DNA from: Occultella kanbiaonis
GTDB lineage: Bacteria > Actinomycetota > Actinomycetes > Actinomycetales > Beutenbergiaceae
Direction: 5' to 3'
DNA: 64,000 nt
NCBI RefSeq assembly: GCF_009708215.1
Contig: NZ_CP046175.1
Coordinates: forward strand, 2,356,001-2,420,000
Position 1 is the first letter of the stretch. Every line of letters starts with the position of its first letter. The translations under genes were made by a program, and so were the position numbers. The notes beneath the pieces are model-generated. The model saw only the letters and a list, made by a program, of their open reading frames with translations. It was not told where the DNA came from and made no database searches. Positions 22,892-53,123 of this stretch are shown one piece after another.

Positions 22892-22915
22892 GCGTTCCGA
22901 CGGACCCGTGCGACG

Positions 22916-23724: not shown

Positions 23725-23730
23725 TAGACA
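23725..23730 (+). promoter_or_regulatory. Possible -10 element of the lipoprotein operon
   Basis: TAGACA preceded by TGC (an extended -10 shape) ends 6 nt before the GTG at 23737. The last position is A rather than T, so this is weaker than the other leaderless-type sites. Confidence 0.35.
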
Positions 23731-23736
23731 AGCCAT

Positions 23737-26499: not shown

Positions 26500-26605
26500 C
26501 CCCCGCGCGGACCCGACCGGGTGAGGACTAGCATGCGATGCGAGCGGACCGACTGCCGCCGGCATCCCGCCGGTGCCAGGGCACCGCAGAGAGCAGGTCC
26601 GCCGG

Positions 26606-38475: not shown

Positions 38476-38984
38476 TGCGCTCACCATTCCTCTCTGTTCT
38501 CCAGAGTGGAACGGCCCGACGGCGGATGCCAGGGACCTACGTCACGTTCCGTCGCGCTCGGCTCACCTTCGGGTGACGAATAGTTCGGACCCGCGGCACT
38601 TGACCGTGACCGGCCAGCGCCTCGCCCGACGCGAACCGAGCTGAAGCGAACCGACCGGAGTGAACGGACCGGACAACACCTGCGACGGCAGCATCCTCGC
38701 GCAGTCTGGCCCGTGCGGTCCTCCCGTCCGCGGTGGACGAGGGTTGAGCCACCGTGGTGCCTCGACCGTCTGCGATCCTGGATCTTCGCGGCGACACGCG
38801 CTCGAGCCGGAATCAAGCTACCCGGCGAGCGAATGGCTGTCTGTCAACTACCTGTGCACGCCGGCGAGCAGCCGAGACAGTCTGTCTGCCGTCCCGGTGG
38901 GTGGAACCGATCCGACGAAGCGGTCGCGGCCCGACCTAGCATGCGGCCGATGGCTTGACCAATCGTCGCGAAGAAGGTCCGCTC
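38476..38984. other. 500-bp intergenic region
   Basis: No convincing gene. It contains short direct repeats around GCGAACCGA (about 38628-38660), no clear terminator, and a TAGCAT hexamer (38937-38942) that could be the -10 of the following gene with a leader of about 36 nt. Frames here are open only because of base composition. Confidence 0.5.
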
Positions 38985-41708
38985 GTGAACAGCCCGCCCG
39001 GTCCGCACAGCATCGCCATCTCGACCGTGTGCCTCGCCGGCGCTCTCGAGGACAAGTTGGCAGCGGCAGCGGCAGCGGGGTTCACCCGTGTCGAGTTGAT
39101 CGAGTACGACCTGGTCATGTCGTCGTGGTCGCCGCGCCGGCTCGCCGAGGAGGCGGCGGGCATGGGCTTGTCCATCGAGGCGTATCAGCCGTTCCATGTC
39201 GAGGCGATCTCGCCCACTGCGTTCCACGCCACTCTTCGCCGGGCCGAGAGCAAGCTCGAACTCCTGTCTGAGCTCGGCGTTCGGGTGATGGTGTGCTGCG
39301 CGACGAGGACCGCCGACGGTATCGATGACGACGATCTGGCGGCCGATCAGCTGCGTTCGCTGGCGGAACGGGCGGAGGCGCACGGAGTCCGCCTCGCGTA
39401 CGAGGCGGTGCCCTGGGGGCGGCTGCGCACACATGAGGACGCCCTCCGTGTGGTCCGCAAGGCCGACCATCCTGCGCTCGGGCTGTGCCTCGACAGCTTC
39501 CACCTGCTATCGCCGGAGAACGATTCCTCGGCCGTGGAGCGGATCCCCGTCGACCTGGTCTCGCACGTCCAGCTCGCCGACGCCTTCAGACCGAACCTGG
39601 ACGTCCGCGAGTGGAGCCTGCACTACCGGATGTTCCCCGGCCAGGGCGCACTGGACGTCGCGGGCTTCGTCGACCGGCTGCTCGTCAAGGGCTATGGGGG
39701 ATCGATCGCGCTCGAGGTCTTCAACGACGTCTATCAGCAGGAGGACCCACGGCATGCCGCGACCGACGCGATGCGCTCGCTGTTCGCGTTCGCCGAGGCA
39801 CTGGACTCGCGAGCCTCGTTCGGCATTCCTGAGCGGTTCGGCACGGAGGACCTACCGGCGGTGCCCGAGCTGGGGGGCTTCGCGTTCGCGGAACTCGCTC
39901 TGGACGATGTGTCGTCCCCTCTGGTCTCGCGTGCACTGGCCTCACTGGGGTTCGCCCAGGTCGGTCGGCATCGCTCCAAGCCTGTGGAGCTGTGGGAGCA
40001 GGGCGGAGCTCGGGTTCTGCTCAACCTGGCGCCGGAGCGGTCCATCACTCCGGCGACAGCCTCGATCTCTGCGCTGGCGGTCGAGAGTGCCGATCCGGAT
40101 GCCTCGATGCGACGTGCCGAGCGGATGCTCGCACCGGAGCTGGCCAGGCGGCGAGCTCCTGACGAGGCCACCCTGAGCGGTGTCGCCGTGCCCGATGGCA
40201 CCGCGCTGTTCTTCTGTGCTCCCGGAACCGGGAACTCGTGGCGTGACGACTTCGACCCGACCGAGAGAACTGCGGAGCCGTCGCCGTTGCTCACCGGGAT
40301 AGATCACGTGTCGATCACCGAGTCGGTTGACGACTTCGACCAATCGACTCTGTTCTTCCGGTCGGTACTGGGACTCGTTCCGGGAGAGGCGACGGAGGTC
40401 ACGGCGCCCTTCGGGCTGATCCGTGGCTGGTCTGCGAGCGACCCCGGGCGCAACGTCCGCGTGACCCTGAATACAACCGCGCTGCGACGCGGTGACTGGG
40501 CCCCCGGCGTCTCGAGTCCCCAGGTCATCGCCTTCGCCACGGAGGACGCGATCCGGTGCGCAAAGGTCCTCCGTGAGCGGGGTGCGAGGATCCTCGAGAT
40601 CCCACGCAACTACTACGACGACCTCGACGCCCGGATGCCGCTCCCAGCCGAGGTGTTGACGGCGCTGCGTGAGAACTCGGTCGTCTACGATCGCGACTCC
40701 CGCGGCGAGTACCTGCACTTCTTCACGGAGATGCTCGGCTCGCGCGTGATCTTCGAGGTGGTCCAGAGGGTCGAGGGATACGACGGCTACGGCGATCCGC
40801 ACAGCATCCCGTTGCGAATGGCAGCGCACCGCCGTCAGCGGCTGCGCATGCTCGCGAGCGCGCCAACCGTTGCTGAGGCCGACCACTTTCATCGATACTC
40901 GCTCGCACATCTCACCGCGCTCAGCCTGTCGCCCCCGGAGCTGGTGGACGCTGCCGCTGCCGCCGGCTATCGCTATGTGGGACTTCGGATGACGAAGGTC
41001 ACCGCGCAGGAGCCCTACTACCCGCTGCCGTACGATCCGGCACTCATGCGCGCGACGAAGACGCACCTCGCCGCGACCGGCATCGAGGTGCTCGACATCG
41101 AGCTCGCACGGATGACCTCCGGTGACAGCCCCCGCGACTACCTGCGTTTCCTCGAGGCGGGTGCGGAACTCGGAGCGCGTCACGTCATCACCCAGCTACC
41201 CGACGCGGACTTCTCGCGCAAGGCGGCCCGGTTCGCCGAGCTGTGCCAGCTCGCAGCCCCGCTCGGCCTCACCATCGACCTCGAGTTCCCCTCATGGACC
41301 GAGACACCGAACCTGACCGAGGCCAGCAGGGTGCTGCGATCAGCGGATCAACCCAACGCCGGAATGCTCATCGATCTCCTCCACTTCGCCAGATCTCGTT
41401 CGAGCGTGGACGAGTTGCGTGAGCTCCCGCGGGAGTGGTTCCGCTTCGTCCACGTGTGCGATGCCCCGGCCGAGATCCCCGCCACGACTGCCGAGCTCAT
41501 CCACACGGCGCGATTCGAGCGGCTCTTCCCGGGGGAGGGAGGCATCGACATGCACGGCATCCTCGCGGCTCTGCCCGTCGGCATCCCGTACGCGCTCGAG
41601 ATCCCGCGCGCGATGCTGGTGGCGCAGGTCGGGGCCAAGGAGCACGCACGACGGGCGATCGACGCCGCGCGCCGCCACCTCGACGCGGCCGCGGCGATGA
41701 CGGCCTGA
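38985..41708 (+). CDS. Three-domain fusion: dehydroshikimate dehydratase-like barrel, HPPD-like VOC domain, second TIM barrel
   Basis: 907 aa. Residues 1-270 form a xylose-isomerase-like barrel with metal ligands E140 (YEAVPWGR), D170 and H173 (LCLDSFHLL), Q196 (HVQLADA) and E244 (ALEVFND). These match bacterial 3-dehydroshikimate dehydratase, which yields protocatechuate. Residues 435-605 form a 4-hydroxyphenylpyruvate dioxygenase-like domain, as in QuiC-type fusions. H441 and E591 are kept, but the middle His ligand is V514 (SPQVIAF). Residues 637-907 form a further AP-endonuclease-2-type barrel with its own ligand set E767, D797/H800, H823 and E872. The third domain is not part of known QuiC proteins as I know them. 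GTG 38985 follows AAGAAGG by 8 nt. Convergent with tetR; the nearby shikimate dehydrogenase homologue would supply 3-dehydroshikimate. Confidence 0.85.
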   Translation: MNSPPGPHSIAISTVCLAGALEDKLAAAAAAGFTRVELIEYDLVMSSWSPRRLAEEAAGMGLSIEAYQPFHVEAISPTAFHATLRRAESKLELLSELGVRVMVCCATRTADGIDDDDLAADQLRSLAERAEAHGVRLAYEAVPWGRLRTHEDALRVVRKADHPALGLCLDSFHLLSPENDSSAVERIPVDLVSHVQLADAFRPNLDVREWSLHYRMFPGQGALDVAGFVDRLLVKGYGGSIALEVFNDVYQQEDPRHAATDAMRSLFAFAEALDSRASFGIPERFGTEDLPAVPELGGFAFAELALDDVSSPLVSRALASLGFAQVGRHRSKPVELWEQGGARVLLNLAPERSITPATASISALAVESADPDASMRRAERMLAPELARRRAPDEATLSGVAVPDGTALFFCAPGTGNSWRDDFDPTERTAEPSPLLTGIDHVSITESVDDFDQSTLFFRSVLGLVPGEATEVTAPFGLIRGWSASDPGRNVRVTLNTTALRRGDWAPGVSSPQVIAFATEDAIRCAKVLRERGARILEIPRNYYDDLDARMPLPAEVLTALRENSVVYDRDSRGEYLHFFTEMLGSRVIFEVVQRVEGYDGYGDPHSIPLRMAAHRRQRLRMLASAPTVAEADHFHRYSLAHLTALSLSPPELVDAAAAAGYRYVGLRMTKVTAQEPYYPLPYDPALMRATKTHLAATGIEVLDIELARMTSGDSPRDYLRFLEAGAELGARHVITQLPDADFSRKAARFAELCQLAAPLGLTIDLEFPSWTETPNLTEASRVLRSADQPNAGMLIDLLHFARSRSSVDELRELPREWFRFVHVCDAPAEIPATTAELIHTARFERLFPGEGGIDMHGILAALPVGIPYALEIPRAMLVAQVGAKEHARRAIDAARRHLDAAAAMTA

Positions 41709-41749
41709 GGTGCCGCGCCGGCCGTCGTCGGCGTCTTGTCGACCGCCGG

Positions 41750-42424
41750 TCAGGCGGGCTCCGCCGAGCGCCCCTGCGTCATGGTCGCGACGACCATGTC
41801 GCCGATGAGCTGGCGGTGCGAGTCCTGTAACCCCGGCGCGAGCAGGTCGCGTTCGAAGATCGCGGCGAAGGTGTGCCGGTTCGCCACGTGGAAGCACGCG
41901 TACGCACTGATCATCATGTGCACGTCGACGGCATCGATGTCGTCGCGGAACAGGCCCACCCGCACTCCGCGCTCGATGACCTGCTCGAGCAGTGTGATCG
42001 CCGTGACGTTCTCGCGCATGATCGTCTCCGACTGCCGCAGGTGTTCGGCGCGGTGGATGTTCTCGATGCTGACGAGCTTGATGAACGCCTCGTGCGTCGT
42101 GTGATGGTCGTAGGTGGCCTCGGCGAGCCGGCGCAGTGCCTCGTCCGGCGAGAGCTCCTCGATGTCGATCCCGCGCTCCACCCGTCGGATCTGTGCGTAG
42201 ACCCGCTCGAGGACGGTGAGGTACAGGCCTTCCTTGGAGCCGAAGTAGTAGTAGATCATCCGCTTTGTGGTCCGCGTGCGGGCGGCGATGACGTCGACCC
42301 GCGCGCCGGCGTAGCCGTTCGCGGCGAACTCGTCCGTCGCGATCTCGAGGATGTCCGCCTGGGTGCGGGCAGCCCGCCGCTGGCCCGGGCGGACGTCGGC
42401 GACGTGGGCCGAACCTTCCTCCAT
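41750..42424 (-). CDS. TetR/AcrR family regulator
   Basis: This 224-aa protein has an N-terminal helix-turn-helix in ILEIATDEFAANGYAGARVDVIAARTRTT, followed by KRMIYYYFGSKEGLY, the canonical recognition helix of TetR proteins. The rest is an all-helical ligand/dimer domain. The ATG overlaps the stop of the shikimate-dehydrogenase gene (TGATG), so the regulator is translated with the enzyme. Its likely operator is the 24-bp perfect palindrome at 43418-43441 in the divergent promoter region ahead of that operon. Ligand probably an intermediate of the pathway. Confidence 0.88.
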   Translation of the reverse strand: MEEGSAHVADVRPGQRRAARTQADILEIATDEFAANGYAGARVDVIAARTRTTKRMIYYYFGSKEGLYLTVLERVYAQIRRVERGIDIEELSPDEALRRLAEATYDHHTTHEAFIKLVSIENIHRAEHLRQSETIMRENVTAITLLEQVIERGVRVGLFRDDIDAVDVHMMISAYACFHVANRHTFAAIFERDLLAPGLQDSHRQLIGDMVVATMTQGRSAEPA

Positions 42425-43305
42425 CAAGGCCTCCTCCGGCCGCGGGCCCGGTCCTCAGCGCTGGTCAGAATTCGGAAGTGCCGCTCCATACGGTCCCGAT
42501 CGGGCTGCGCGCCGGTGATGATCCGGAGACTAGCGTAGGCCTGCCCGACCGCCATCAGGCCGCCGTCGAGGACGCGATGACCGCGTTCAGCAGCCTGCCG
42601 GAGGAGTTCCGTCTGCAGTGGCCGATACACGACGTCCGACACCCAGGCGTGGGGCTGCAGGAGGCCCACATCGAAGGCGACTCCCGGGTGGTGACGCATC
42701 CCAGTCGGTGTCGCGTGGACGACGCCGGACGCTCGTGCGATCGCGGCGGAGATCTCCCCGGGCGGCCAGGTCCGGACGACCTGGGTCGGGAAACGCGTGC
42801 GCATTCGGGCCGCGAGGTCCTCGCGCCGCGCCTCGTCGACGTCGCAGAGCTCGAGCGTGGCGGTGCCGTGTGACAGCAGCGCGTAGGCGGTCGCTGCGCC
42901 CGCGCCACCGCAGCCGACCTGGACGACGCGTTCGAACGAGGCACCCGGTAGACCGATGATGAGCGCATCGCGGTAGCCCATCCAATCGGTGTTGAACGCG
43001 ACCGTGCGCGAGCCGACGAAGACGACCAGGTTCGCTGCCCGCAGGTGGTCGGCGTCCTCCTCGAGCTCATCCACGACGTCGACCACGCGCTGCTTGCACG
43101 GATGCGTGATGTTCATGGCTGAGAAGCCCTCTTGCCTCGCCTGGATCAGGAGCGAGCCCACGTCGTCCGGCGCTCGTCCGAGCCGGGCCAGGTCGAGGAT
43201 GCGGTACTCGTAGTCGAGAGCCAGCGCCGATGCCTCGGCCTCGTGCATCGGGGGAGTGAGGGACTCGGTGATGCCGGAGCCGATGAGGCCGACGAGATAT
43301 CTCAT
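42424..43305 (-). CDS. Shikimate/quinate dehydrogenase family protein
   Basis: This 293-aa protein of the AroE family would interconvert 3-dehydroshikimate and shikimate (or quinate analogues) with NAD(P)H. The substrate domain has SLTPPMHE and the catalytic Lys71 in NITHPCKQ (usually NVTxPxK). Asp107 follows in FNTDWMGY. The nucleotide-binding loop is VGCGGAGAATAYA, and the C-terminal GxxMxxxQ helix appears as GGLMAVGQAY. Location in a catabolic cluster with its own TetR and a dehydroshikimate dehydratase-like gene suggests catabolic use (QuiB/QsuD-like) rather than aromatic amino acid synthesis. No Shine-Dalgarno was seen before the ATG. Confidence 0.88.
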   Translation of the reverse strand: MRYLVGLIGSGITESLTPPMHEAEASALALDYEYRILDLARLGRAPDDVGSLLIQARQEGFSAMNITHPCKQRVVDVVDELEEDADHLRAANLVVFVGSRTVAFNTDWMGYRDALIIGLPGASFERVVQVGCGGAGAATAYALLSHGTATLELCDVDEARREDLAARMRTRFPTQVVRTWPPGEISAAIARASGVVHATPTGMRHHPGVAFDVGLLQPHAWVSDVVYRPLQTELLRQAAERGHRVLDGGLMAVGQAYASLRIITGAQPDRDRMERHFRILTSAEDRARGRRRP

Positions 43306-43417
43306 GCGGGCGCCAGGTCATGCCTGCGCGCTGCCGTCGCCTGTGTCAACGTGCGCATGGCACCCCTTCTTAGACCTGGTACGGCGGTGACCCCGACCCT
43401 CGGAGCACCGTTGCCTC

Positions 43418-43441
43418 TAAACGTACTAACTAGTACGTTTA
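43418..43441. promoter_or_regulatory. Perfect 24-bp palindromic operator
   Basis: Arms TAAACGTACTA and TAGTACGTTTA are perfectly complementary around a 2-bp AC centre. The size, symmetry and AT-rich arms are typical of TetR-family operators. It is centred in the gap between the aroE-tetR operon (minus) and the iclR pair (plus), and so can control both. Confidence 0.82.
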
Positions 43442-43492
43442 ACAGTGTAGGGCGATCTATGGCGATTCAACCCTCTTGAAGGAAGGCGCTCG

Positions 43493-44251
43493 ATGAAGAG
43501 TCTCGCCGAATGGAACACGTCGGCTACCGCCCCGGTCGCGCCGGTGTCCGTGCTCGGTCGGGTCGTTGCGATCCTCGACGGGGTCAAGGAGAGCGGAGGT
43601 CCGATCTCTATCACGGAGCTCGCCGGGCGGACCGGGATCCCGAAGTCCACCGTCTCCCGGTTGGTCGCCGAGATGGTCGACCGGCGCTATCTGCAACGCG
43701 ACGACGGCGGGGTGACCCTCGGGTTGCGGCTGTTCGAGCTCGGCGCGCGCGCGATCCTGCCCAGGCGTCTGCTGGCGGCTGCGGCACCCGTCATCCGCGC
43801 CCTGCACGACGCCACCGGGGAGAGAATCGGGCTCTGGGTGCAGCAGGGCACGGACATGGTCTCGATCGCCGTGGTCGTCGGGCGCCTGCCGATGCTCCCC
43901 ACCTGTGCCGGTATGCGATCACCCGCACTCACGACGGCGAGCGGCAAGGCGTATCTCGCGTTCTGCGCCGATCAAGCGGTGGTCAGGCGCGTGAGTGCGC
44001 CGCTCATCTCCTCTGCTGCGCACGCGTTCCTCGATGAGCTTGACCAGGTGCGGGAGGAGGTCGTCGCCGTGGACAGGGAGATCTCGTATCCCGGCATCCT
44101 CGCGGTCGCGAGTCCTGTTCTCGGGGCCGACCGGAACGTCGTCGGTGCGCTGTCGATCGCCGCTCCAAGCGGTTCGATGGACGCCGGCCACCTCGCCCCG
44201 TTGATCCGCAGCGCCGGGACTGCTGTCACCCGCCGTCTCGCGGCGGCATGA
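43493..44251 (+). CDS. IclR family regulator 1
   Basis: This 252-aa protein has a winged helix-turn-helix at about residues 20-80, SITELAGRTGIPKSTVSRLVAEMV, preceded by LGRVVAILDGV. The C-terminal IclR effector domain contains TCAGMRSPALTTASGKAYLA and the late SYPGILAVASPVLGAD and GALSIAAP segments. A GAAGGAAGG purine stretch precedes the ATG. The stop overlaps a second IclR gene (ATGA). Its promoter region holds the TetR-type palindrome, so it may be subordinate to TetR. Likely target: the TRAP and acylating-dehydrogenase operons downstream. Confidence 0.88.
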   Translation: MKSLAEWNTSATAPVAPVSVLGRVVAILDGVKESGGPISITELAGRTGIPKSTVSRLVAEMVDRRYLQRDDGGVTLGLRLFELGARAILPRRLLAAAAPVIRALHDATGERIGLWVQQGTDMVSIAVVVGRLPMLPTCAGMRSPALTTASGKAYLAFCADQAVVRRVSAPLISSAAHAFLDELDQVREEVVAVDREISYPGILAVASPVLGADRNVVGALSIAAPSGSMDAGHLAPLIRSAGTAVTRRLAAA

Positions 44252-45105
44252 CGGCCATGCGCACAGCAGGCTGGACGGAGTCCATCAGTGTCCTCGACCG
44301 GATCACGACCGTGTTCGAGGCGTTCGGCGAGACGGAAGGCATGGGAGTCACGGAGCTGGCGCGACGTGCCAACCTGCCGAAGTCGACGGTCTCACGGATC
44401 GCTGCGGACCTCGTCGGCCAACGACTGCTCGACCGCGAGGGCGACGTGCTCCTTCTCGGAGTTCGGCTCTTCGAACTGGGTCAGACGGTCGAGCGCCCGC
44501 GGCGCCTTCGCGCCCTGGCTCATCCCGTCATGACAGAGTTGCGCAACGTCACCGGTCACACCGTGCACCTCGCGGTACTCGACGACCGTGACGTCGTCCT
44601 GCTCTCTGTGGTCCGCGGCAGGACCGACGACGCCTCGTGCGCGGTGGTGGGCAGCCGTCTCCCAGCGCACGCGACCGCGCTCGGCAAGGCACTACTGGCC
44701 TTCTCGCCGTCAGATCGGACCGCGCCCTACCTGCTCGAAGGCGCGTTGCCACGACGCACGCCGAATACGATATGCGACCCGGCAGCGCTCGTTCGTGAGC
44801 TCGGTGAGGTACGGCGCAACGGCGTGGCGTTCGAGCGCGAGGAGTGCGACGCCGGCCGCGCCTGCGTCGCGGGCGCGATCCTCTCGCTGGGCACGGTGCC
44901 GAAGGCGGCGATCTCCGTGACCGGGCCGCCGCCGGTGATCGCTGAGGAGCGCGTCGCTGCCGCCGTTCGCTCCGCGGCGATCACCCTCGGCCGTCGGGTC
45001 GATGCGCGTGAGGATCGCTCACTGGAGGAGACGAAGCGGGTGGGCCATCCCGCACCCACCCGCTCTCCGACCGGTCAGCCTGCGGACTCGCGAATCGCCT
45101 GGTAG
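44248..45105 (+). CDS. IclR family regulator 2, with extended C-terminus
   Basis: This 285-aa protein has the same architecture as IclR 1: helix-turn-helix GVTELARRANLPKSTVSRIAADLV and effector domain with GSRLPAHATALGKALLAF and SLGTVPKAAISVTG. Coupled to IclR 1 by ATGA, so the two are made in similar amounts and might form heterodimers. The final 32 or so residues, from about REDRSLEETKRVG, are not family sequence. They read through a perfect 10-bp hairpin and overlap the convergent dctP stop by 31 bp. The original stop was probably lost. Confidence 0.86.
   Translation: MTAMRTAGWTESISVLDRITTVFEAFGETEGMGVTELARRANLPKSTVSRIAADLVGQRLLDREGDVLLLGVRLFELGQTVERPRRLRALAHPVMTELRNVTGHTVHLAVLDDRDVVLLSVVRGRTDDASCAVVGSRLPAHATALGKALLAFSPSDRTAPYLLEGALPRRTPNTICDPAALVRELGEVRRNGVAFEREECDAGRACVAGAILSLGTVPKAAISVTGPPPVIAEERVAAAVRSAAITLGRRVDAREDRSLEETKRVGHPAPTRSPTGQPADSRIAW
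45035..45064 (-). terminator. Terminator hairpin of the TRAP operon inside the iclR-2 reading frame
   Basis: AGCGGGTGGG (45035-45044) pairs perfectly with 45055-45064 across a 10-nt loop. It lies 11 nt beyond the dctP stop on the minus strand and within the 3' coding part of iclR 2. Confidence 0.65.
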
Positions 45106-46139
45106 GCCTCCAGGCTCTCGCCGGTGAAGTAACTCTCGAAGAACTCCTCGGATTGGCTGATGAAGGCATCAATGTCGATGTCCTCCGTCTCGACGACGGT
45201 GAACGCCGGGTCCGACCTCAGTTCGTCCAGGATCTCCTCTGTCGCCTCTTCGACGCACGTGCGGTTCTCCGGACGGATCTCCCGAATGGTCTCGTCGAGC
45301 ATGGCGGCCTGCTCCTCGCTCAGCTTCTCGTAGGTGGCGTCGCTGACCAGGATCCAGTGGATGCCCACCTGATGGTTGTTCAGGCTCGCCGTGTTGAGTA
45401 CCTCGAAGTAGCTCGAGGACTGCGTCGCCACGATCGGGTTCTCCTGACCGACGGCGATGCCCTGCTGGAGGGCGGTGTAGAGCTCTTCGACGGCCACGGA
45501 GACAGGGTTGGTGACTCCGAGAGCCTCGGCATTGGCGAGGAACTGCGGCGAGTTCGGGAAACGGATCGGCACACCCGCCAGGTCATCCGGGCTGGTGATC
45601 TCGATGTCCGCCGTCGAGAAGGTGCGGCTGCCGAAGAACCAGCCGTCGACGATCGTCACGCCGGTCGCCTCGTGGAAGTTTGTGAAGAGGCCCTCGGAAC
45701 TCTCGTCGATCCACTGGAACGCGTGTTCGACGTCGTTGAAGGCGTAGGACGCGTCGACGACCCCGATCGGCTCGAACGTCGAGCTGAGTGCCGACGCTCC
45801 CTGCAGGTCGATGTCGATGTCGCCGGCCTGCACCTGCGGGAACCGGTCGGCATCAGGGCCGAGCTGACTGGAGGGGTACAGCTCGATCGTGAACCCGACG
45901 TCAGCTGTTTCCAGGCGTTCCTTGAGCAGCTCGACGCCGCAGTAGTAGTTGGGGGTTTGCTCGTTCTGAGAAGTCGCGACACTGAGCGTGACCGGATTGT
46001 TCTCCGAACCGGCCGCGTCCCCCTCGTCCGACGTCTCCTCGGGGCCCGCGCCGCCGCCGGAGCAGGCGGCGACGAGGGTGGCGGTTGCGAGCACCGACGC
46101 GGCGACCAGGCCCCGGCGCCTCGAGCGGGCTGTGCTCAT
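45075..46139 (-). CDS. TRAP transporter substrate-binding lipoprotein (DctP family)
   Basis: This 354-aa protein is the extracytoplasmic receptor of a TRAP transporter, which takes up organic acids using the sodium gradient. It has a basic N-terminus, an LVAAC lipobox near residue 26 and an acidic linker. The DctP fold follows with IELYPSSQLGPDADRFPQVQ, GWFFGSRTFST, and the PDDLAGVPIRFPNSPQF loop whose Arg usually salt-bridges the substrate carboxylate. GTALQQG-like VEELYTALQQGIAVGQENP is also diagnostic. GAGGAG precedes the ATG. It is transcribed last in the dctQ-dctM-dctP order, after a 172-bp gap with hairpins. Substrate unknown; a carboxylate or sulfonate is likely. Confidence 0.92.
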   Translation of the reverse strand: MSTARSRRRGLVAASVLATATLVAACSGGGAGPEETSDEGDAAGSENNPVTLSVATSQNEQTPNYYCGVELLKERLETADVGFTIELYPSSQLGPDADRFPQVQAGDIDIDLQGASALSSTFEPIGVVDASYAFNDVEHAFQWIDESSEGLFTNFHEATGVTIVDGWFFGSRTFSTADIEITSPDDLAGVPIRFPNSPQFLANAEALGVTNPVSVAVEELYTALQQGIAVGQENPIVATQSSSYFEVLNTASLNNHQVGIHWILVSDATYEKLSEEQAAMLDETIREIRPENRTCVEEATEEILDELRSDPAFTVVETEDIDIDAFISQSEEFFESYFTGESLEAYQAIRESAG

Positions 46140-46158
46140 CTGACTCTCCTCTTGTCTG

Positions 46159-46176
46159 TTGCACGCCTTCGTGCAA
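46159..46176. repeat. Hairpin in the dctM-dctP gap
   Basis: TTGCACG and CGTGCAA form a perfect 7-bp stem over a 4-nt loop, about 20 nt ahead of the dctP start. A second small hairpin (CGCCTC/GAGGCG) lies upstream. Such elements may protect or attenuate the message so that the binding protein is made in excess. Confidence 0.45.
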
Positions 46177-46311
46177 GTGCAGGACTTCGAATGCCGGTTG
46201 ATCGCCTCCCAACGAGGCGGTCGTGTGGTCGTACCGACTCTGGCGGAAATCCTTACCTTCTCAAACGGATGTCCCGACGAGTGGAACAGCCTCTGCGACT
46301 TGTGCCGGGTC

Positions 46312-47592
46312 CTAGGTGAGGCCGAGCAGGGTCGGCACGATGGTGACGATCTCCGGGAACAGGGTTAGCAGCAGGAGAACCACGCCGAGGGGAATGAGGA
46401 AGGGGAGGATGCCGCGGAACAGTTCGGCCATGGGCCGTCTGGTGATCGACCCGACAACGAAGAGCACCGCGCCCACGGGTGGTGTCAGGGACCCGATCAT
46501 GAGATTGAGGATCATGATGACGCCGAGGTGGATCGGGTCGATGCCGAACTCGCCGATGATCGGCATGAGGATCGGGACGAGGACGAGGATGACGGGCGGT
46601 GCCTCCAGGAAGATGCCGAGGAGGATCAGGACGACGTTCAGCAGCAGGAGGAAGACGACCGGGTTGTCGGTGAGGCTCGCCAGCCAGTTTCCGAGGGCGC
46701 GCGACACCTGCTCGCGCGCCAGCACCTGACCCATGAGGTTGGAGGCTCCCAGGATCAGCAGGATGCCGCCCGAGACGATGACAGTGTCCTTTGCGGCCAG
46801 CCAGAAGCGCCGTAGCGTGAGCGTCCGGTAGACCACGCCGAGCGCGAGCATGTAGACCGACGCGATGCCGGCGCTCTCCGTGGGAGTGAACCACCCGCTG
46901 AAGATGCCGCCCAGGATGATCACGGGGAGTAGAAGTGGGCCCAGCACGCGCACCGAGGTGTGACGAAGCGTCCCGCCGTCGAAGGGCCGCTTCACCGCGA
47001 TGCCAGGGTGCATCTTGACCCAGACTGCGACGTAGACGGCCAACCCGACCGCCATCAGTCCTGCCGGGAGGATCGACCCCGCGAAGAGCGCCCCGGTCGA
47101 GACGGCGGCAGTCGCCGCGAAGATGACCGCGGGGATGCTGGGTGGCATCACCGTGCTCATGAGCGAGCCCGAGGCGGTGAGGCCGGCCGAGAAGCCGTAG
47201 GGGTACCCCTGCTTGAGCATCTGCGGTATCTGCACCTTGCTCGTCGAAGCAGCGTCGGCGAGCGCTGACCCGCTGATCCACGAGAACCCGATCGCCGTGC
47301 CCAGGTTCACGTACGCGAGATTGCCGGGCAATCGCGGAAGCAGTGCTTTCGCGAAGTCGTACAGCCTGGTGGCGATCCCCAGGTGGTTCGCGATCGTTCC
47401 GACGAACACGAAGAGCGGGACCGCGAGCAGGGGGAAACTGTTGATGCCGTTCAGGACCGACGTGATCGCGTATCCCGGCGACAGGTTGTGGCTGTAGAAA
47501 TACGCCATGCTGGGGGCGATCATTGCGAACGCGACGGGCACCCGGAGCAGCAGCAGGACGACGAGCAGCAGGATGTAGAGCCAGAGATCCAC
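46312..47592 (-). CDS. TRAP transporter large permease (DctM family)
   Basis: This 426-aa protein with about 12 transmembrane segments is the ion-coupled translocation subunit. Family signatures: AVPLFVFVGTIAN, GFSWISGSALADAASTSKV, MPPSIPAVIFAA, FTPTESAGIASVY and a late PPVGAVLFVVGSI. The GTG start lies 5 nt after the dctQ stop behind GGAGGG, which fixes it over several upstream in-frame codons. It forms the membrane complex with DctQ. Confidence 0.95.
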   Translation of the reverse strand: MDLWLYILLLVVLLLLRVPVAFAMIAPSMAYFYSHNLSPGYAITSVLNGINSFPLLAVPLFVFVGTIANHLGIATRLYDFAKALLPRLPGNLAYVNLGTAIGFSWISGSALADAASTSKVQIPQMLKQGYPYGFSAGLTASGSLMSTVMPPSIPAVIFAATAAVSTGALFAGSILPAGLMAVGLAVYVAVWVKMHPGIAVKRPFDGGTLRHTSVRVLGPLLLPVIILGGIFSGWFTPTESAGIASVYMLALGVVYRTLTLRRFWLAAKDTVIVSGGILLILGASNLMGQVLAREQVSRALGNWLASLTDNPVVFLLLLNVVLILLGIFLEAPPVILVLVPILMPIIGEFGIDPIHLGVIMILNLMIGSLTPPVGAVLFVVGSITRRPMAELFRGILPFLIPLGVVLLLLTLFPEIVTIVPTLLGLT

Positions 47593-47597
47593 CGTCC

Positions 47598-48212
47598 CTA
47601 GCCCTCCATCTCGGAGATGTCGAGCTTGCGCTCCGGACGATTGGCGTATGGGATCTTCCACGCCGAGTGGATCGCGGCGGAGAGGAATCCCATGAACGCG
47701 AAGACGTAGAGGGTTCCGATGGGCACGCGCATCGCGGCACTCGCGCGAGCCCACTCGATCTCGATCTTGACGAACGCCTCGTAGGCGAGCGCCAGGCAGG
47801 TGGCGACCATGATGAGGGCCGAGACGACCCGGAGCACGCTGAACGCGCGGGATCCCGCGAGGACCTGGTCGAAGACCTCGATCACGATGTGGCCATTGCG
47901 CCCGACCAGGTAGCCGGTCGTCATGAAGGTCATGGCGATCATCGACAGCAGCGCGAGCTCACCCGCACCCACCCATCCGATCTCAGGGAAGTACCGGCCG
48001 ATCACCTGGTACATCACCCCGATGACGATGAGGGCGAACAGGATCACTCCGATCGTGAGCTCCACGCCTGACCAGATGCGCAGCAGGAGGGGTTCGCGCG
48101 GCACGTCCTCACCGGCGGCCGGCGCGAGGCCGTAGTTTGACGCCGCGATGTCGGGGTCCGGCGTGTCGTCGGGTTTCGGGATCCGGTCTCCATCCGGCGT
48201 GCGCTTGCTCAC
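47598..48212 (-). CDS. TRAP transporter small permease (DctQ family)
   Basis: This 204-aa protein has four helices after a hydrophilic N-terminal extension of about 45 residues. The DctQ motif is seen in MYQVIGRYFPEIGWVGAGELALLSMIAMTFMTTGYLVGRNGHIVIEVF (given by its parts VIGRYF, ELALL, GHIVIEVF). It pairs with DctM in the membrane. It is the first gene of the TRAP operon and is divergent from the aldehyde dehydrogenase gene across 271 bp that probably contains both promoters. Confidence 0.93.
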   Translation of the reverse strand: MSKRTPDGDRIPKPDDTPDPDIAASNYGLAPAAGEDVPREPLLLRIWSGVELTIGVILFALIVIGVMYQVIGRYFPEIGWVGAGELALLSMIAMTFMTTGYLVGRNGHIVIEVFDQVLAGSRAFSVLRVVSALIMVATCLALAYEAFVKIEIEWARASAAMRVPIGTLYVFAFMGFLSAAIHSAWKIPYANRPERKLDISEMEG

Positions 48213-48344
48213 GTCGTCGCCGCCGGCAAGTCAGAAGCCATAGCCAACCTCTCCGTTGGGGTCATGCCGCTCTCGGGCGCACACGGGCGACCGTCGGTGA
48301 GACTCTCGATCGTGTGCCATGCCTGCGCAAAGCCGAGTCTCGCG

Positions 48345-48418
48345 CAATGGGACACCGGCATCGCGGTGGCGCACCGACGTGTCGCGCCGATCGGGTGGTT
48401 CTGCCCAGTGAGACACCG
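48345..48418. promoter_or_regulatory. Paired 13-bp direct repeats in the divergent TRAP/dehydrogenase promoter region
   Basis: CAATGGGACACCG (48345-48357) and CAGTGAGACACCG (48406-48418) match at 11 of 13 positions and lie 61 bp apart, close to six helical turns. Good candidates for binding sites of the neighbouring IclR proteins. Confidence 0.45.
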
Positions 48419-48483
48419 TTTGTCGGCTCGGTCGGGCCTGTGTTTGCATGCCGCCGTCGGACCAGCCTGAAGACGGAGAAGTC

Positions 48484-49926
48484 ATGGCAACCACCGCACC
48501 ATCCCGGCCATTGTCGCCTGAGCAACAGAGCGAGCTCGGCGACGTATTCGCCCGCGCGCAGGCCGCGCTCGAGGTGATCGAGATCTATGACCAGGAACGC
48601 GTCGACCGCCTGATCCAGGCCATCGCCTGGGCTGTGGCCAACCGCGCCTCGTTCGAGCGGCTCGTCCGGATGGGCATCGAGGAGTCCGGGCTCGGCGACC
48701 ACGACAGCCGGATGAACAAGCGGATGAAGATCCGCGGCGTCCTCCGGGATGCACTTCGAAGCCCGTCTGTGGGAGTCATCGAGACCGATGCCGCGCGAGG
48801 CCTCGTGAAGTATGGAAAGCCGGTCGGCATCATCGGCTGCGTGGTACCCACCACCAACCCCGACCTCACGCCGGCGGGCAATGCGATCTATGCGGTCAAG
48901 GCTCGCAACGTCGTCGTGTTCTCTCCTCACCCACGCTCACGCGAGACGACGTTCGAGACGGTTCGGCTGATGCGCGAAGCACTGGAGGCCGAGGGTGCCC
49001 CGCCCGACATCCTTCAGTGCATCACCCGTCCGAGCCTCGCAGCGTCTCAGGAGGTCATGAGGCGCTCCGATCTCGTCATCGCGACCGGTGGGCAGGGCCT
49101 CGTGCGTGCGGCGTACAGGTCCGGCACCCCGGCCTACGGGGTGGGAGCCGGTAACGCGACCGAGTTCGTGGACGAGACCGCAGACCTTCAGGAGACCGCT
49201 CGCAACTGCATGCTGTCCAAGACCTCGGATTTCGGCTCGGGCTGCTCGGCCGACGGCAATGTGCTCGTGCCCGCGGCCCGCTATCGCGAGATGCTCGACG
49301 AGCTTGAGAACGTGGGTGGGTATCTCGCCTCCGCGGATGAACGTGCCGCCCTGCAGCGCGCGATGTGGGACGAGGACGGGCAGCGACTCCCAGGCACGGT
49401 CGCGATAGCCCCGCAGGCGCTCGCGCGCGCGGCGGACTTCGAGATCGACGCCGACCGACGCTTCGTCGTCGTCGAGGGGGACGGCATCGGCGAGGATCAC
49501 CAGTTCTGCAAGGAGAAACTGACGACCCTGATGACGGTCCACGCCTACGAGGGCGACTTCGAGGACGGTGTAGAACTCGCCAAGCACCTGTACGAGATCG
49601 GAGGAAAGGGCCACTCCTGCGGCATCGCGTCAACCGATGACGCCCACATCGACTACTTCGCGCGACACATGCCCGTCTCGCGCATCATGGTGCGCCAGCC
49701 CAACTCGAAGGCGAACGCGGGCTCTTTCACCAACGGGATGCCGATGACGTCCTCCATGGGATGCGGTACCTGGGGCGGCAACATCACCTCCGAGAACGTC
49801 TCGCTCCGCCACTACCTCAACACGACGTGGGTCTCACGCACGATCGCTGAGGATCGCCCCACCGACGCCGAACTCTTCGGGGACTTCTACGATGCGGAGC
49901 TCGAGACGGCGGGCGCGGTCCCATGA
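48484..49926 (+). CDS. Acylating (CoA-dependent) aldehyde dehydrogenase, sulfoacetaldehyde-dehydrogenase-like
   Basis: 480 aa. Acylating aldehyde dehydrogenases oxidise an aldehyde with NAD(P) and release it as an acyl-CoA. The nucleotide-fold segment GIIGCVVPTTNP, ending in PTTNP, is characteristic of the acylating branch (EutE, AdhE, SauS). The catalytic Cys254 lies in FGSGCSADGN, close to the SCSAD form of sulfoacetaldehyde dehydrogenase. A late GGNITSENVSLRHYLNTTWVS block is also typical of this branch. GGAG before the ATG selects 48484. ATGA overlap with the next gene. The true substrate is unknown; a small aldehyde made by the ThDP enzyme of the same operon is the simplest idea. Confidence 0.87.
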   Translation: MATTAPSRPLSPEQQSELGDVFARAQAALEVIEIYDQERVDRLIQAIAWAVANRASFERLVRMGIEESGLGDHDSRMNKRMKIRGVLRDALRSPSVGVIETDAARGLVKYGKPVGIIGCVVPTTNPDLTPAGNAIYAVKARNVVVFSPHPRSRETTFETVRLMREALEAEGAPPDILQCITRPSLAASQEVMRRSDLVIATGGQGLVRAAYRSGTPAYGVGAGNATEFVDETADLQETARNCMLSKTSDFGSGCSADGNVLVPAARYREMLDELENVGGYLASADERAALQRAMWDEDGQRLPGTVAIAPQALARAADFEIDADRRFVVVEGDGIGEDHQFCKEKLTTLMTVHAYEGDFEDGVELAKHLYEIGGKGHSCGIASTDDAHIDYFARHMPVSRIMVRQPNSKANAGSFTNGMPMTSSMGCGTWGGNITSENVSLRHYLNTTWVSRTIAEDRPTDAELFGDFYDAELETAGAVP

Positions 49927-50783
49927 CCGAGCACTCGCCCGAGGAACTCGTCGCCGAGGTTCGGCGGTGGTGGAGCACCGGAATCATCGACGTCCGACCA
50001 GGAGAGATCGCCCTGCGCGGCTACCCGATCCAGGAACTGATCGGTGACGCGAGTCTCGTCGAGACGATCTGGCTCATGCTGCGTGGCGAGCTGCCGACAC
50101 GAGCGGAGGCCGCGCTGCTGGAGGCGGCCATGGTGGCGTCCGTCGACCACGGACCCCAAGCCCCCTCGATCGCGATCGGACGGATGGCGGTGACGTGCGG
50201 GTCGCCGATCAACGCGGCGATGGCGTCGGCCATCAACGTCCTCGACGACGTGCACGGCGGTGCCGGCCAGCAGTGCATGGAGCTGTACCTCGAGATCGAT
50301 GGCGAACGCGACCGCTCCGGCGGACTCGACACCGCCGTCGGGCTGGTCCTCCAGCGGCGTCGCGAGGCGGGGCTGAACTACGTGCCAGGATTTGGTCACC
50401 GACTTCACCCGCTCGACCCGAGGACACCCCGTCTGCTGGCGCTCGTCGACTCCGGCGCCGCAGCGGGTGTCGTGGACGGCCGGTTCGCCGCCATCGGCCG
50501 TGCCGTCGAAGTTGCGCTCAGCACGGGCAAGGCGGCACGCGTCCCGATGAACATCGACGGGGCGACGGCGGTCGTGTACTGCGAGCTCGGGCTCAGACCC
50601 GAGCTCGGACGCGGGGTGTTCGTCCTCGCGCGCTCGATCGGCATCCTCGCCCATGCCGCCGAGCAGTTGGCGCAGGGTGGACGCATCAAGGGCCCCACGC
50701 CGAAGTCGGTCCGCTACACCTACACCGGGCCGGCGCGGCGACCGGTCCCTCGCGATCGCGACGCCAGAAGGAGCCCGCTATGA
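49923..50783 (+). CDS. Short citrate-synthase-family enzyme (citryl-CoA-lyase-like)
   Basis: This 286-aa protein lacks most of the N-terminal 80-100 residues of ordinary citrate synthases. All three catalytic positions are present: H111 in DDVHGGAG, H159 in VPGFGHRLHPLDPR, and D212 in PMNIDGA. A substrate Arg is kept in the GHR/DPR segments. Such short forms include citryl-CoA lyases, but because the catalytic triad is complete, condensation of an acyl-CoA with an oxoacid (or the reverse cleavage) is equally possible. Sandwiched between an acylating dehydrogenase and a ThDP enzyme with ATGA overlaps on both sides, so the three should act in one pathway. Confidence 0.82.
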   Translation: MTEHSPEELVAEVRRWWSTGIIDVRPGEIALRGYPIQELIGDASLVETIWLMLRGELPTRAEAALLEAAMVASVDHGPQAPSIAIGRMAVTCGSPINAAMASAINVLDDVHGGAGQQCMELYLEIDGERDRSGGLDTAVGLVLQRRREAGLNYVPGFGHRLHPLDPRTPRLLALVDSGAAAGVVDGRFAAIGRAVEVALSTGKAARVPMNIDGATAVVYCELGLRPELGRGVFVLARSIGILAHAAEQLAQGGRIKGPTPKSVRYTYTGPARRPVPRDRDARRSPL

Positions 50784-52543
50784 AGGACCTCGTCTCCAAC
50801 CAGATCGTCCGATATCTCCGGGCGCGCCAGGTCGAGCACATCTTCGGACTCTGCGGGCACACGAACATCGCGCTGCTCGCCGCCATCGAGAAGAGTGCCA
50901 GCATCTCCTTCGTCAACGTGCGTCACGAGCAGATCGCGTCGCACGCCGCCGACGGCTACGCCCGGGTGACCAAGCGGGCGTCGGTGGTGCTGACCCACCT
51001 CGGACCAGGGATGACGAATGCCGCGACCGGTGTGGCGAACGCCGCACTCGACTCGATCCCGATGGTCGTGATAGCCGGCGACGTACCGAGTCACTACTAC
51101 GGCAAGCATCCGCACCAGGAGATCAACCTCCACGCCGACGGCGCCCAGTACGAGATCTACCGACCGTTCGTGAAGAGGGCCTGGCGGCTCGACCGCGCGC
51201 ACCTCGTGGCCGAGGTGCTCGACAAGGCGTTCACCCTCGCCGAGAGCGGCCGGCCCGGGCCGGTGCTCGTCGACGTGCCGATGGACGTGTTCTCCGCCGA
51301 GGTCGATGTCGCCTCGTTCGACAAGGTGATCGCCAACACCCGGTCGCTCGCGAAGCCGAGCCTCGACGAAGCGGTGGCCGAACAGATCGTGGGCAACCTC
51401 CTCGCCGCGGAACGCCCGGTCCTGTACGTCGGCGGCGGGATCGTCGGCGCCGACGCCGCGGCGGAACTCGCCGAGTTCGCCGAACTGCTCTCGCTTCCCG
51501 TTGCCCACAGCCTCATGGGCAAGGGCGCGTTACCGGATGACAACCCGCTGGTTCTGGGTATGACGGGATTCTGGGGAACGGCTCTCGTCAACTCCACGAC
51601 GCGCACCGCCGACTGGATCCTCGCCCTCGGCACTCGCTTCGCCGAGGCAGACTCGAGCTCGTGGTACCCGGAGTACACATTCGACATCCCCGCCACCAAA
51701 CTCATGCAGATCGACATCGATCCCGCCGAACTGGGCCGCAACTACCCCCTCGAGATCGGCGCGCTCGCCGACCTCAAGGCCGCGCTCATGGTGTTGGTGA
51801 GGGTCGCGCGTCGGCTCGCGCCGGCCGGCGTTTCCCGCGCCGCCCTGCGCGCGCAGATCGCGGCGAACCGTCAAGCACTGAAGGATCGCAACGCTGCGGC
51901 GCAGGCATCCGACGACTGGCCCATGCGCCCCGAGCGGATCCTCTCCGAGACGAGGGAAGTGCTCCCCGCCGACGCGATCATCACCACCGATGTGGGATGG
52001 AACAAGAACGGCGTCGGCCAGCAGTTCGACGTCCTGACGCCGGGCACGTTCCTCACCCCCGGGGGCTTCGCGACGATGGGCTTCGGCGCGTCCGCAGCGG
52101 TCGGAGCGAAGTTGGCCGGACGCGATCGCGTCGTCGTGTCGCTCGTGGGGGACGGCGGCTTCGGGCAGAACCCGTCCGTACTCTCGACCGCCCGGGAAGA
52201 GCGCATTCCCGTGGTTTGGGTCGTCATGAACAACAACGCGTTCGGCACCATCGCAGGTCTCGAGAAGGCGGCGTTCGGCACGACATACGGGACGGTCTTC
52301 GGGGACGTCGAGGATCCGATGTACACCGACTACGCGGCGATCGCTCGCGCCTACGGCGTCGAAGGAATCAGGGTCACGTCGGCGTCGGAGTTCAAACCCG
52401 CGCTCGAACGGGCCATCGCCCTGGACGAGCCGGTCGTGATCGACGTGTCGATGGTCAACGTGCCCACGCCCACCACCGGACATTGGAACATCCTGGACAT
52501 CTACTCGCCGGGCAAGAGGCTGGAGCACCTCGCGACGAACTGA
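50780..52543 (+). CDS. Thiamine-diphosphate-dependent enzyme (acetolactate-synthase-like)
   Basis: 587 aa with the three-domain ThDP layout. The N-terminal Pyr domain has FGLCGHTNIALL and the catalytic Glu50 in VRHEQIASHAADGYAR. The central domain (about 200-340) follows, and the C-terminal PP domain has the metal motif GDGGFGQNPSVL through VMNNNAFG. It resembles acetolactate synthase, oxalyl-CoA decarboxylase and sulfoacetaldehyde acetyltransferase without clearly being any of them. It could decarboxylate or ligate a 2-oxoacid. GAAGGAG precedes the ATG, which overlaps the previous stop. It is the last gene of the operon. Confidence 0.86.
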   Translation: MKDLVSNQIVRYLRARQVEHIFGLCGHTNIALLAAIEKSASISFVNVRHEQIASHAADGYARVTKRASVVLTHLGPGMTNAATGVANAALDSIPMVVIAGDVPSHYYGKHPHQEINLHADGAQYEIYRPFVKRAWRLDRAHLVAEVLDKAFTLAESGRPGPVLVDVPMDVFSAEVDVASFDKVIANTRSLAKPSLDEAVAEQIVGNLLAAERPVLYVGGGIVGADAAAELAEFAELLSLPVAHSLMGKGALPDDNPLVLGMTGFWGTALVNSTTRTADWILALGTRFAEADSSSWYPEYTFDIPATKLMQIDIDPAELGRNYPLEIGALADLKAALMVLVRVARRLAPAGVSRAALRAQIAANRQALKDRNAAAQASDDWPMRPERILSETREVLPADAIITTDVGWNKNGVGQQFDVLTPGTFLTPGGFATMGFGASAAVGAKLAGRDRVVVSLVGDGGFGQNPSVLSTAREERIPVVWVVMNNNAFGTIAGLEKAAFGTTYGTVFGDVEDPMYTDYAAIARAYGVEGIRVTSASEFKPALERAIALDEPVVIDVSMVNVPTPTTGHWNILDIYSPGKRLEHLATN

Positions 52544-53123
52544 GATCGGTGCATCGAGACGAGGGATCGCCGACGCCGAGAGCCCTGCGAACAAGCCAGA
52601 AGATGCCACCACCGGCACCAACATGGCTCGGGGTGAAGCGCGCCAGGTTCTCTGCCGCCGCAATCTGGGTTGCGACTCCCGGGTGAGGGTCGCGTAGTGG
52701 CTTTCGAACTCCGCTGGGCTCGTCATGCCAAGGGAGCCGTGAAGCCACCGTTTGGTTGTACCAGTCGACTGATGTACCGGGCGCTTCTCGGGCGAGGTCT
52801 TGTCTCCACCCAGGTCGAACTCGCTTTCACCGCCGCGCTCGACCTCGAAGGGGCTCCTCGAGGCCTTCGCCTCGTCGCAGCCTTGCGCTGGCCCACCGTC
52901 AGACCCATCCAGTTGGCGTAGAGCACTCCACCCACCACGCGACGCCACACCGACATGCGGACGTTCTCAGAGGTTCAACTGAGGCAACGTCTGGATCCAC
53001 GCGGAGGTCTTCATGAGTCAACGCGCATCCTTGACGCCCATCGGCACCGCACCTACGATCAGCCAGATCCAATTACAGTCGCCTCAATGGTTGATTATGT
53101 TGGGTCTAAAATTAGGAGACGAG
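52544..53123. other. Gap with IS debris and the promoter of the beta-propeller gene
   Basis: Apart from the transposase fragment, no gene was supported. Base composition is lower in GC than the flanks around 53040-53120. A TAAAAT hexamer (53107-53112) and TAGGAGACG precede the ATG at 53124. Confidence 0.5.
52660..52785 (-). mobile_element. IS3-family transposase C-terminal remnant (frameshifted)
   Basis: On the minus strand one frame reads TSVDWYNQ and the next reads KRWLHGSLGMTSPAEFESHY followed by ATLTRESQP. Joined, these give the typical end of IS3-family OrfB (WYN-x-RxLHxSLG-M-x-SPAEFE-x-HYATL). At least one frameshift separates them and the DDE core is absent. No terminal inverted repeats were identified. 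It shows past insertion activity next to the catabolic operon. Confidence 0.7.

Follow-up and report, generated by a model that had tools for sequence, protein, structure and literature searches.

The window, as the whole stretch of 64,000 nucleotides analysed here is called (Occultella kanbiaonis, contig NZ_CP046175.1, positions 2,356,001 to 2,420,000 of the forward strand), contains a gene module with a thiamine diphosphate (ThDP) enzyme, an acylating aldehyde dehydrogenase (ALDH), a citryl-CoA-lyase-like (CCL-like) protein and a tripartite ATP-independent periplasmic (TRAP) transporter (Table 1), which is discussed as a candidate for the catabolism of quinate and shikimate. An earlier note on this DNA had placed a catabolic module at 45075..52543, with dctQ-dctM-dctP divergent from three tightly overlapping enzyme genes. 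These genes were found in that order: dctPMQ runs leftward and ALDH-CCL-ThDP rightward from a divergent intergenic region, the TRAP set is complete, with DctP, DctQ and DctM each above the Pfam cut-off, and the overlap amounts to 4 bases at both the ALDH/CCL and the CCL/ThDP junction. The range was too narrow, since the three-domain QuiC-like/TIM protein and the shikimate dehydrogenase (SDH) family protein belong to the module as well, which extends over 38955-52543.

The residues on which the note had relied could all be located. Cys254 of the acylating ALDH, counted from an ATG at 48484, is Cys266 of the 492-aa open reading frame (ORF), and the motif PTTNP lies at residue 134, or 122 from the later start; H111, H159 and D212 of the 286-aa citrate-synthase-family protein, which we take to match the catalytic residues of citrate synthase, were found by motif, and Glu50 is present in the ThDP enzyme. 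The annotated ORF of DctM overlaps dctQ, and its true start probably lies further inside.

Table 1. Features of the module and its regulators in the window; L numbers denote related loci described below.
Feature	Position	Strand	Remarks
TIM barrel 1 (TIM1) + HPPD-like domain (QuiC1-like) + C-terminal TIM barrel (TIM2), three-domain protein	38955..41708	+	Pfam AP_endonuc_2 (twice), Glyoxalase, Glyoxalase_5
TIM2 domain, candidate 3-dehydroquinate-to-3,4-dione dehydratase	40875..41705	+	
TetR regulator	41750..42427	-	Pfam TetR_N, TetR_C_29; modules of L036 and L040 likewise adjoin one
SDH family protein, candidate quinate/shikimate dehydrogenase	42424..43305	-	PRK12549, 354.4 bits (above cut-off of 235)
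IclR-family regulator	43493..44251	+	NCBIfam IclR-type models below cut-off; same position in L036, L040, L042
IclR-family regulator (BhcR/PcaR-like)	44248..45105	+	NCBIfam below cut-off; same position in L036, L040, L042, L043
TRAP solute-binding protein DctP	45075..46139	-	Pfam PF03480, 164.8 bits
TRAP large permease DctM	46312..47754	-	Pfam PF06808, 348.7 bits, residues 62-469
TRAP small permease DctQ	47598..48212	-	Pfam PF04290, 64.7 bits
Acylating ALDH, candidate CoA-acylating homocitrate-semialdehyde dehydrogenase	48448..49926	+	Alternative start 48484
CCL-like protein, 286 aa, candidate homocitryl-CoA lyase	49923..50783	+	NF004864
ThDP enzyme, candidate cyclic 1,2-dione hydrolase (ring opening)	50780..52543	+	Pfam TPP N, M, C

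Related loci and the company of the ThDP gene

A search of plasmid records with the window's acylating ALDH, CCL-like and ThDP proteins yielded three loci (L028, L029 and L030), chosen for carrying the ThDP gene. One genome per species (84,980 species) was scanned with an alignment of four ThDP sequences, and the best 80 of 577 confirmed relatives were added, giving a first set of 83 loci. Nine loci not near-identical to the earlier ones were obtained from fresh genomes, drawn from partly overlapping samples of 299, 398 and 398 genomes, so that 92 loci were available; they were accepted at an identity of at least 49%, G398, G404, G445 and G598 (36-38%) being left out, and matches in G301, G305, G308 and G314, which were carriers already known, were not counted as fresh. 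Forty control windows of 20 kb were picked by hand at round coordinates in 9 carrier genomes. Genes were counted by tblastn, because an ORF-based count missed CCL (23 vs 32 loci) through overlapping ORFs.

Among the best 80 of the 577 relatives, the nearest ThDP sequence was that of Occultella aeris (99%). Other carriers were Microbacterium, Agromyces, the Bacillus group, Aromatoleum diolicum 22Lin, Accumulibacter and Thioclava, and also Desulfofustis, Desulfobulbaceae, Anaerospora, Candidatus Formimonas and Clostridiales, the last five of which we take to be strict anaerobes.

In Azoarcus sp. KH32C (L028), an operon encodes, in this order, an HPPD-like protein, a TIM barrel, a CoA transferase, CCL, a ThDP enzyme 67% identical to that of the window, shikimate dehydrogenase, a type I 3-dehydroquinate dehydratase and a TauE/SafE exporter; a divergent IclR gene lies to its left. 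Similar kinds of genes (TIM-HPPD-TIM fusion, shikimate dehydrogenase, two IclR genes) stand left of the window enzymes. The Streptomyces and Nonomuraea loci (L029, L030) combine ThDP and CCL with a CoA transferase, an ordinary ALDH, a pyrroloquinoline quinone (PQQ) dehydrogenase, an ABC transporter and an SDH or QuiC-like gene. PQQ-dehydrogenase-like proteins adjoin the module in several actinobacterial loci (L029 3218-5374; L030 3481-5622 and 16348-18420; L037-L039, L041, L042) and are possibly periplasmic quinate dehydrogenases. TauE/SafE-type exporter genes were seen beside the module in L028 (15580-16329), L040 (14.5 kb), L066 (5967-6719) and L110 (13.6 kb); the pathway proposed below does not account for them.

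Grouping of neighbouring ORFs into families in an unbiased way gave as recurrent neighbours TIM2, acylating ALDH (acALDH), DctM, SDH, an HMG-CoA-lyase-like protein (HMGL), AroD, a zinc alcohol dehydrogenase (Zn-ADH), a CoA transferase (CoAT), ALDH, CCL and AroQ. Family representatives of HMG-CoA lyase, AroD and AroQ were above curated cut-offs; those of SDH, ADH, CoA transferase and ALDH reached none among the models listed. The first 83 loci contained TIM2 in 58 cases, acALDH in 48, SDH in 34, CCL in 32, HMGL and AroD in 30 each, ALDH, CoAT and Zn-ADH in 25 each and AroQ in 20. These ten families were absent from the 40 controls except for one ALDH and one Zn-ADH; 1 DctM and 4 IclR matches were also obtained there. 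Thus, the co-occurrence of acylating ALDH and CCL-like genes with ThDP relatives, for which the earlier note had suggested a survey, was borne out and is far above chance, and the gene company supports its view of a catabolic module that is kept together in other genomes. A conserved 449-aa protein without Pfam or NCBIfam match (family f16, 16 loci; L077 2625-3974) was seen in Bacillus-group loci, often beside a gene of the shikimate kinase family (for example, L092 6635-7192).

The nine fresh loci had acALDH (8) or ALDH with CoAT (1), TIM2 (6) or a cupin (2, both without TIM2), CCL (4), HMGL (1) or no lyase (4), SDH (5), Zn-ADH (1), and AroD or AroQ (3); L203 showed only acALDH and TIM2 beside ThDP. 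In the 59 loci that span 19 kb or more, a dehydrogenase of the SDH, Zn-ADH or PQQ type was present in 48, a 3-dehydroquinate dehydratase in 36, a TIM or cupin dehydratase candidate in 51, an acyl-CoA-forming set in 52 and a lyase in 46. All five steps were represented in 21 and at least four in 42 of these loci, compared with none in 39/40 and one step in 1/40 of the control windows. Over the 92 loci, 3-dehydroquinate dehydratase was found in 51 (controls 0/40), one of the three dehydrogenases in 69 (controls 1/40) and SDH in 39 (0/40 in the first-round count).

Several of these genes appear to replace each other. Over the 92 loci, CCL alone was found in 35, HMGL alone in 30, both in 1 and neither in 26; the corresponding numbers were 52, 23, 4 and 13 for acALDH and ALDH, 64, 10, 0 and 18 for TIM2 and cupin, 37, 24, 2 and 29 for SDH and Zn-ADH, and 30, 19, 2 and 41 for AroD and AroQ. 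CoAT accompanied ALDH in 21/27 loci and occurred in 5/65 others. On a FastTree ThDP tree (81 rows), the minimum number of switches was 6 for CCL/HMGL (59 labelled rows), 5 for acALDH/ALDH (65), 8 for AroD/AroQ (44) and 3 for SDH/ADH (53). Since the alternatives are largely mutually exclusive and were switched repeatedly, they are read as unrelated enzymes which serve a single reaction in each slot. This pattern would define the late chemistry, namely, conversion of an aldehyde to an acyl-CoA, followed by a retro-Claisen cleavage which releases acetyl-CoA.

Candidate functions of the module enzymes

The window ThDP enzyme is a candidate for the hydrolysis of a cyclic 1,2-dione, as suggested by its clade, its His27 and the gene context. 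His27 corresponds to His28 of cyclohexane-1,2-dione hydrolase (CDH). In the alignment, this position is His in 7/7 rows of the query clade, in 3/3 IolD and in CDH, the row of which was confirmed as the solved enzyme, compared with Gly, Glu, Ala, Asp or Ser in 14/14 other ThDP paralogues. According to PMC12247030, CDH cleaves cyclohexane-1,2-dione, and a variant altered at H28 and N484 instead joins pyruvate to ketones. Phylogenetic trees were constructed with reference ThDP paralogues from four carrier genomes (23 matches, of which L173 gave no tblastn frame and was omitted); the labels IolD, Xsc, Gcl and IlvB were verified by curated models on five paralogues, the others were assigned by eye. 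The query clade formed a single group (support 100/100), placed away from Xsc, and stood together with IolD and CDH on one side of a branch with a support of 87/82, which is below the level of strong support. Holding the query clade with IlvB gave a worse topology (p-AU 0.045).

In the scheme of the earlier note, the ThDP enzyme turns an imported oxoacid into an aldehyde by decarboxylation, and this aldehyde is converted to an acyl-CoA and then condensed or cleaved; the shikimate-type genes would in that case belong to another pathway. Decarboxylases are frequent among the ThDP enzymes of this superfamily, an acylating ALDH adjoins the ThDP gene, and the best NCBIfam models for the window protein are acetolactate synthases, although none of the 25 models listed (of 53) reached its curated cut-off. 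Against this stand the frequencies of 3-dehydroquinate dehydratase and of the dehydrogenases given above, and the position of TIM2 (32 loci) or a cupin (8 loci) directly after ThDP on the same strand. We regard the scheme as a whole as quite unlikely, and the assignment as a 2-oxoacid decarboxylase is probably wrong in view of the CDH-His28 position, the grouping with IolD and CDH, and the company of 3-dehydroquinate/shikimate enzymes.

The best NCBIfam model of the ALDH is SauS (NF047625, 451.7 bits, cut-off 600); no curated cut-off was reached in 15/15 models listed, and among solved chains, acetylating dehydrogenases of succinate semialdehyde and acetaldehyde are the nearest. The role as a maker of acyl-CoA, which the earlier note had assigned, appears to be right. 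Its option of a sulfonate substrate, i.e., catabolism of the SauS/Xsc type, could draw on the SauS match and on the exporter genes of L028, L040, L066 and L110, but neither the SauS cut-off nor that of sulfoacetaldehyde acetyltransferase (PRK07525, 292.4 bits, cut-off 620) was reached, the ThDP clade lies apart from Xsc, and the neighbours are hydroaromatic genes instead. The sulfonate route was rejected as extremely improbable.

The CCL-like protein exceeds the cut-off of the citryl-CoA lyase equivalog NF004864 (410.5 vs 261 bits), and citryl-CoA lyase 6hxp is its nearest solved chain. It probably cleaves a citryl-type CoA ester; of the two directions which the note had offered for it, condensation or cleavage, the "reverse sense" is thus the probable one. 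A CCL-like gene of G034 (L010 1498-2280) was seen near an apparent succinyl-CoA synthetase alpha subunit (by eye), an arrangement in keeping with the classical citryl-CoA route.

In many genomes, TIM2 is encoded by a separate gene close to that of the ThDP enzyme. A putative metal tetrad (E137, D167, H/Q193, E242) was present in 52/52 aligned rows (the window and 51 stand-alone members), and the structure model (pLDDT 93.2) had Lmo2234, IolI and QuiC1 as nearest folds, with IolE and AsbF ranking lower; the family representative matched no NCBIfam model at 1e-10. In loci lacking TIM2 a small cupin adjoins ThDP (L095 11785-12165; L058 9426-9806; L197 8662; L200 3143), directly after it in 8/10 cupin loci, and it is apparently an unrelated candidate dehydratase which replaces TIM2 in some genomes. 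Cupins were counted at 60 bits; a looser search gave two additional matches, in the TIM2-containing locus L085 and in control window L152, both of which disappeared at 60 bits.

A proposed route through homocitryl-CoA

Taken together, these data make it probable that the module encodes an oxygen-independent, non-aromatising catabolism of quinate and shikimate, with the following putative chemistry. The TRAP system would import the hydroaromatic acid, and the SDH homologue, as suggested by its family, would oxidize either quinate, yielding 3-dehydroquinate, or shikimate, yielding 3-dehydroshikimate; the clusters of many relatives include a 3-dehydroquinate dehydratase (type I or II), which would connect these two compounds. 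TIM2, or the cupin in some genomes, could then remove the C5 hydroxyl of 3-dehydroquinate in a reaction of the IolE/dehydroshikimate-dehydratase type, yielding 1-hydroxy-3,4-dioxocyclohexane-1-carboxylate. This 3,4-dione cannot aromatise, because C1 is saturated, retaining the tertiary alcohol and the carboxylate. Hydrolysis of the C3-C4 bond between the carbonyls by the ThDP enzyme, with C3 becoming the aldehyde, should give homocitrate semialdehyde (C7H10O6), which the acylating ALDH, or elsewhere an ordinary ALDH together with a CaiB-type CoA transferase, may convert to homocitryl-CoA. The latter is a 3-hydroxy-3-carboxyacyl-CoA, the type of substrate common to CCL and HMGL, and the CCL-like (elsewhere HMGL-like) protein is predicted to cleave it to acetyl-CoA and 2-oxoglutarate. 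By atom accounting on paper, the net reaction would be quinate + 2 NAD+ + CoA -> acetyl-CoA + 2-oxoglutarate + 2 NADH, with all seven carbons retained.

An aromatic intermediate would be formed first if a QuiC-like enzyme converted quinate to protocatechuate, a 4,5-dioxygenase encoded elsewhere opened the ring, and the ThDP enzyme decarboxylated 4-carboxy-4-hydroxy-2-oxoadipate to citrate semialdehyde, to be followed by citryl-CoA, acetyl-CoA and oxaloacetate. This carbon skeleton suits CCL and HMGL equally, the middle protein is above the cut-off of the citryl-CoA lyase family, and the QuiC1 structure 5hmq aligns over TIM1 and HPPD of the window protein (E 9e-111), which scores 454.8 bits with QuiC NF042435 (cut-off 1200). 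The TIM1-HPPD part may divert a share of the dehydroshikimate to protocatechuate or have acquired another function. Yet the ThDP enzyme groups with cyclic dione hydrolases, and TIM2 occurs without TIM1/HPPD in L046, L047, L094 and L101, presumably anaerobes or members of anaerobe groups. Dioxygenases were searched in 23 of the 80 carriers: LigA was found in 2 (G300, G310), an intradiol-family match over the cut-off in 6 and neither in 16. The window genome (100% complete, one contig) gave no match in a LigA search, in which the controls gave none either, although the 2 matches among the 23 carriers show that the model works, and only 25.5 bits for an intradiol dioxygenase (cut-off 27.3). It contains a partial LigB-family match (L179, G000:C1:507908-508264; 57.8 bits), which is longer in the sister genome G296 (109.4 bits); LigB (PF02900) is uninformative alone, matching 18/23 carriers and 4/14 controls including E. 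coli. On this survey, protocatechuate 4,5-cleavage feeding the module was rejected, and the aromatic sequence of reactions is considered unlikely.

Ring opening could also proceed without dehydration, if a second oxidation gave a 3,4-dione keeping the C5 hydroxyl, the lyase released acetyl-CoA and 4-hydroxy-2-oxoglutarate, and TIM2 acted as an isomerase. SDH and Zn-ADH, however, coincide in only 2/92 loci, and their mutual exclusion is expected for a single oxidation. Also, inspection by eye of the 45 largest neighbour families (one member each, first 70 residues) revealed no 4-hydroxy-2-oxoglutarate aldolase. This variant seems very unlikely.

Several observations weigh against the non-aromatising route proposed here. 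No lyase was found nearby in 26/92 loci, no 3-dehydroquinate dehydratase in 41/92 and no acyl-CoA-forming set in 17/92, and L036, a near-copy of the window locus, lacks the dehydratase in its locus; the missing genes may lie elsewhere in these genomes. The survey counts rest on the best 80 of 577 relatives, which are phylogenetically dependent, and the Fisher values calculated from such counts take no account of this. The ThDP tree has long branches for CDH, Xsc and ThDP163, the last of which lacks the His and follows directly outside the group (86/88). The pattern 'FG[LT]CGHTN' was one of two used in the scan for relatives, so that the conservation of His27 among the matches partly follows from the search itself; the pattern had played no role in obtaining the four seeds. 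CDH His31, His76 and Asn484, which we partly presume to be active-site residues, are Ile, Leu/Val and Ile in the query clade; IolD likewise lacks them. TIM2 resembles isomerases (IolI) as well as dehydratases, the QuiC1-like dehydroshikimate dehydratase domain pair in the window protein and some relatives points to protocatechuate, and 7/23 carriers have LigA or an intradiol match over the cut-off, including the deltaproteobacterial metagenome-assembled genome G300 (LigA). Finally, the intermediate could be another 3-hydroxy-3-carboxyacyl-CoA.

On balance, we lean slightly towards the wider statement that a complete, oxygen-independent pathway for hydroaromatic acids, leading via homocitryl-CoA to acetyl-CoA and 2-oxoglutarate, is widespread, that gene transfer has probably distributed it among Actinomycetota, Bacillota, Proteobacteria and lineages which reduce sulfate or metals, and that unrelated enzymes have come to serve each of its steps catalysed by a dehydrogenase, a dehydroquinate dehydratase, a dione-forming dehydratase (TIM barrel or cupin), an acyl-CoA-forming set and a lyase.

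To the right of the module, the gene at 53013-55043 was rejected as a member, because a search of the 83 loci with its seed gave no match, not even in L036, whose ThDP is 99% identical to that of the window and whose sequence extends 10 kb downstream. At 22900-26500 of the window, tandem related ORFs resembling secreted proteins share a 'LEC.D...CQW' pattern (by eye).

Comparison with known systems

Quinate and shikimate are abundant plant acids, and their textbook degradation leads via protocatechuate, with oxygen for ring opening. We know of no complete gene set described for fermentative growth on them. Fermentation of quinic and shikimic acid by a member of the Fusobacteriaceae lineage (Ilyobacter insuetus) is mentioned, as work from 2002, in PMC10512730, and the title of the same work stands in the reference list of PMC3035301. 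The route proposed here was not found described by title or abstract in a search of the open-access literature. If true, the proposed pathway would supply the missing biochemistry behind this fermentation in a concrete form which can be tested gene by gene. It would also give new specificities to about five generically annotated families (acetolactate synthase, citryl-CoA lyase, HMG-CoA lyase, sugar isomerase and aldehyde dehydrogenase), and an unusually clean example of repeated substitution by unrelated enzymes.

The pathway is rated as a variant of ring-opening cyclitol catabolism, as judged from its putative chemistry. In myo-inositol catabolism, the dehydratase IolE, a xylose-isomerase-like TIM barrel, converts a ketone to a cyclic 1,2-dione, which is opened by the ThDP hydrolase IolD, with the His of the GH[T/G] motif. 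Unlike IolD, the module ThDP enzyme forms its own clade and scores below 288 bits with the IolD model TIGR04377 (cut-off 715; absent from the best 25 of 53 models, the last at 288.1 bits), with which two IolD paralogues reach 884 and 896; also, the products would pass through an acyl-CoA and a retro-Claisen lyase, and the neighbours are of the shikimate type. CDH shares the His28 position and the opening of an alicyclic 1,2-dione proposed here, but is very distant in sequence, and strain 22Lin possesses both CDH (L178) and the module ThDP clade (L164, L110). The protocatechuate route (QuiA/QuiB/QuiC, Qsu) resembles the module in substrate, in the kinds of entry enzymes and in the QuiC1-like domains of the window protein, whereas the proposed route would have no aromatic intermediate and need no dioxygenase. 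Citryl-CoA lyase of the reductive tricarboxylic acid cycle and HMG-CoA lyase perform a retro-Claisen cleavage of 3-hydroxy-3-substituted acyl-CoA esters which releases acetyl-CoA, as would the module lyases; in contrast to the former, the proposed substrate is homocitryl-CoA, and no gene resembling citryl-CoA synthetase was recognised beside the window gene.

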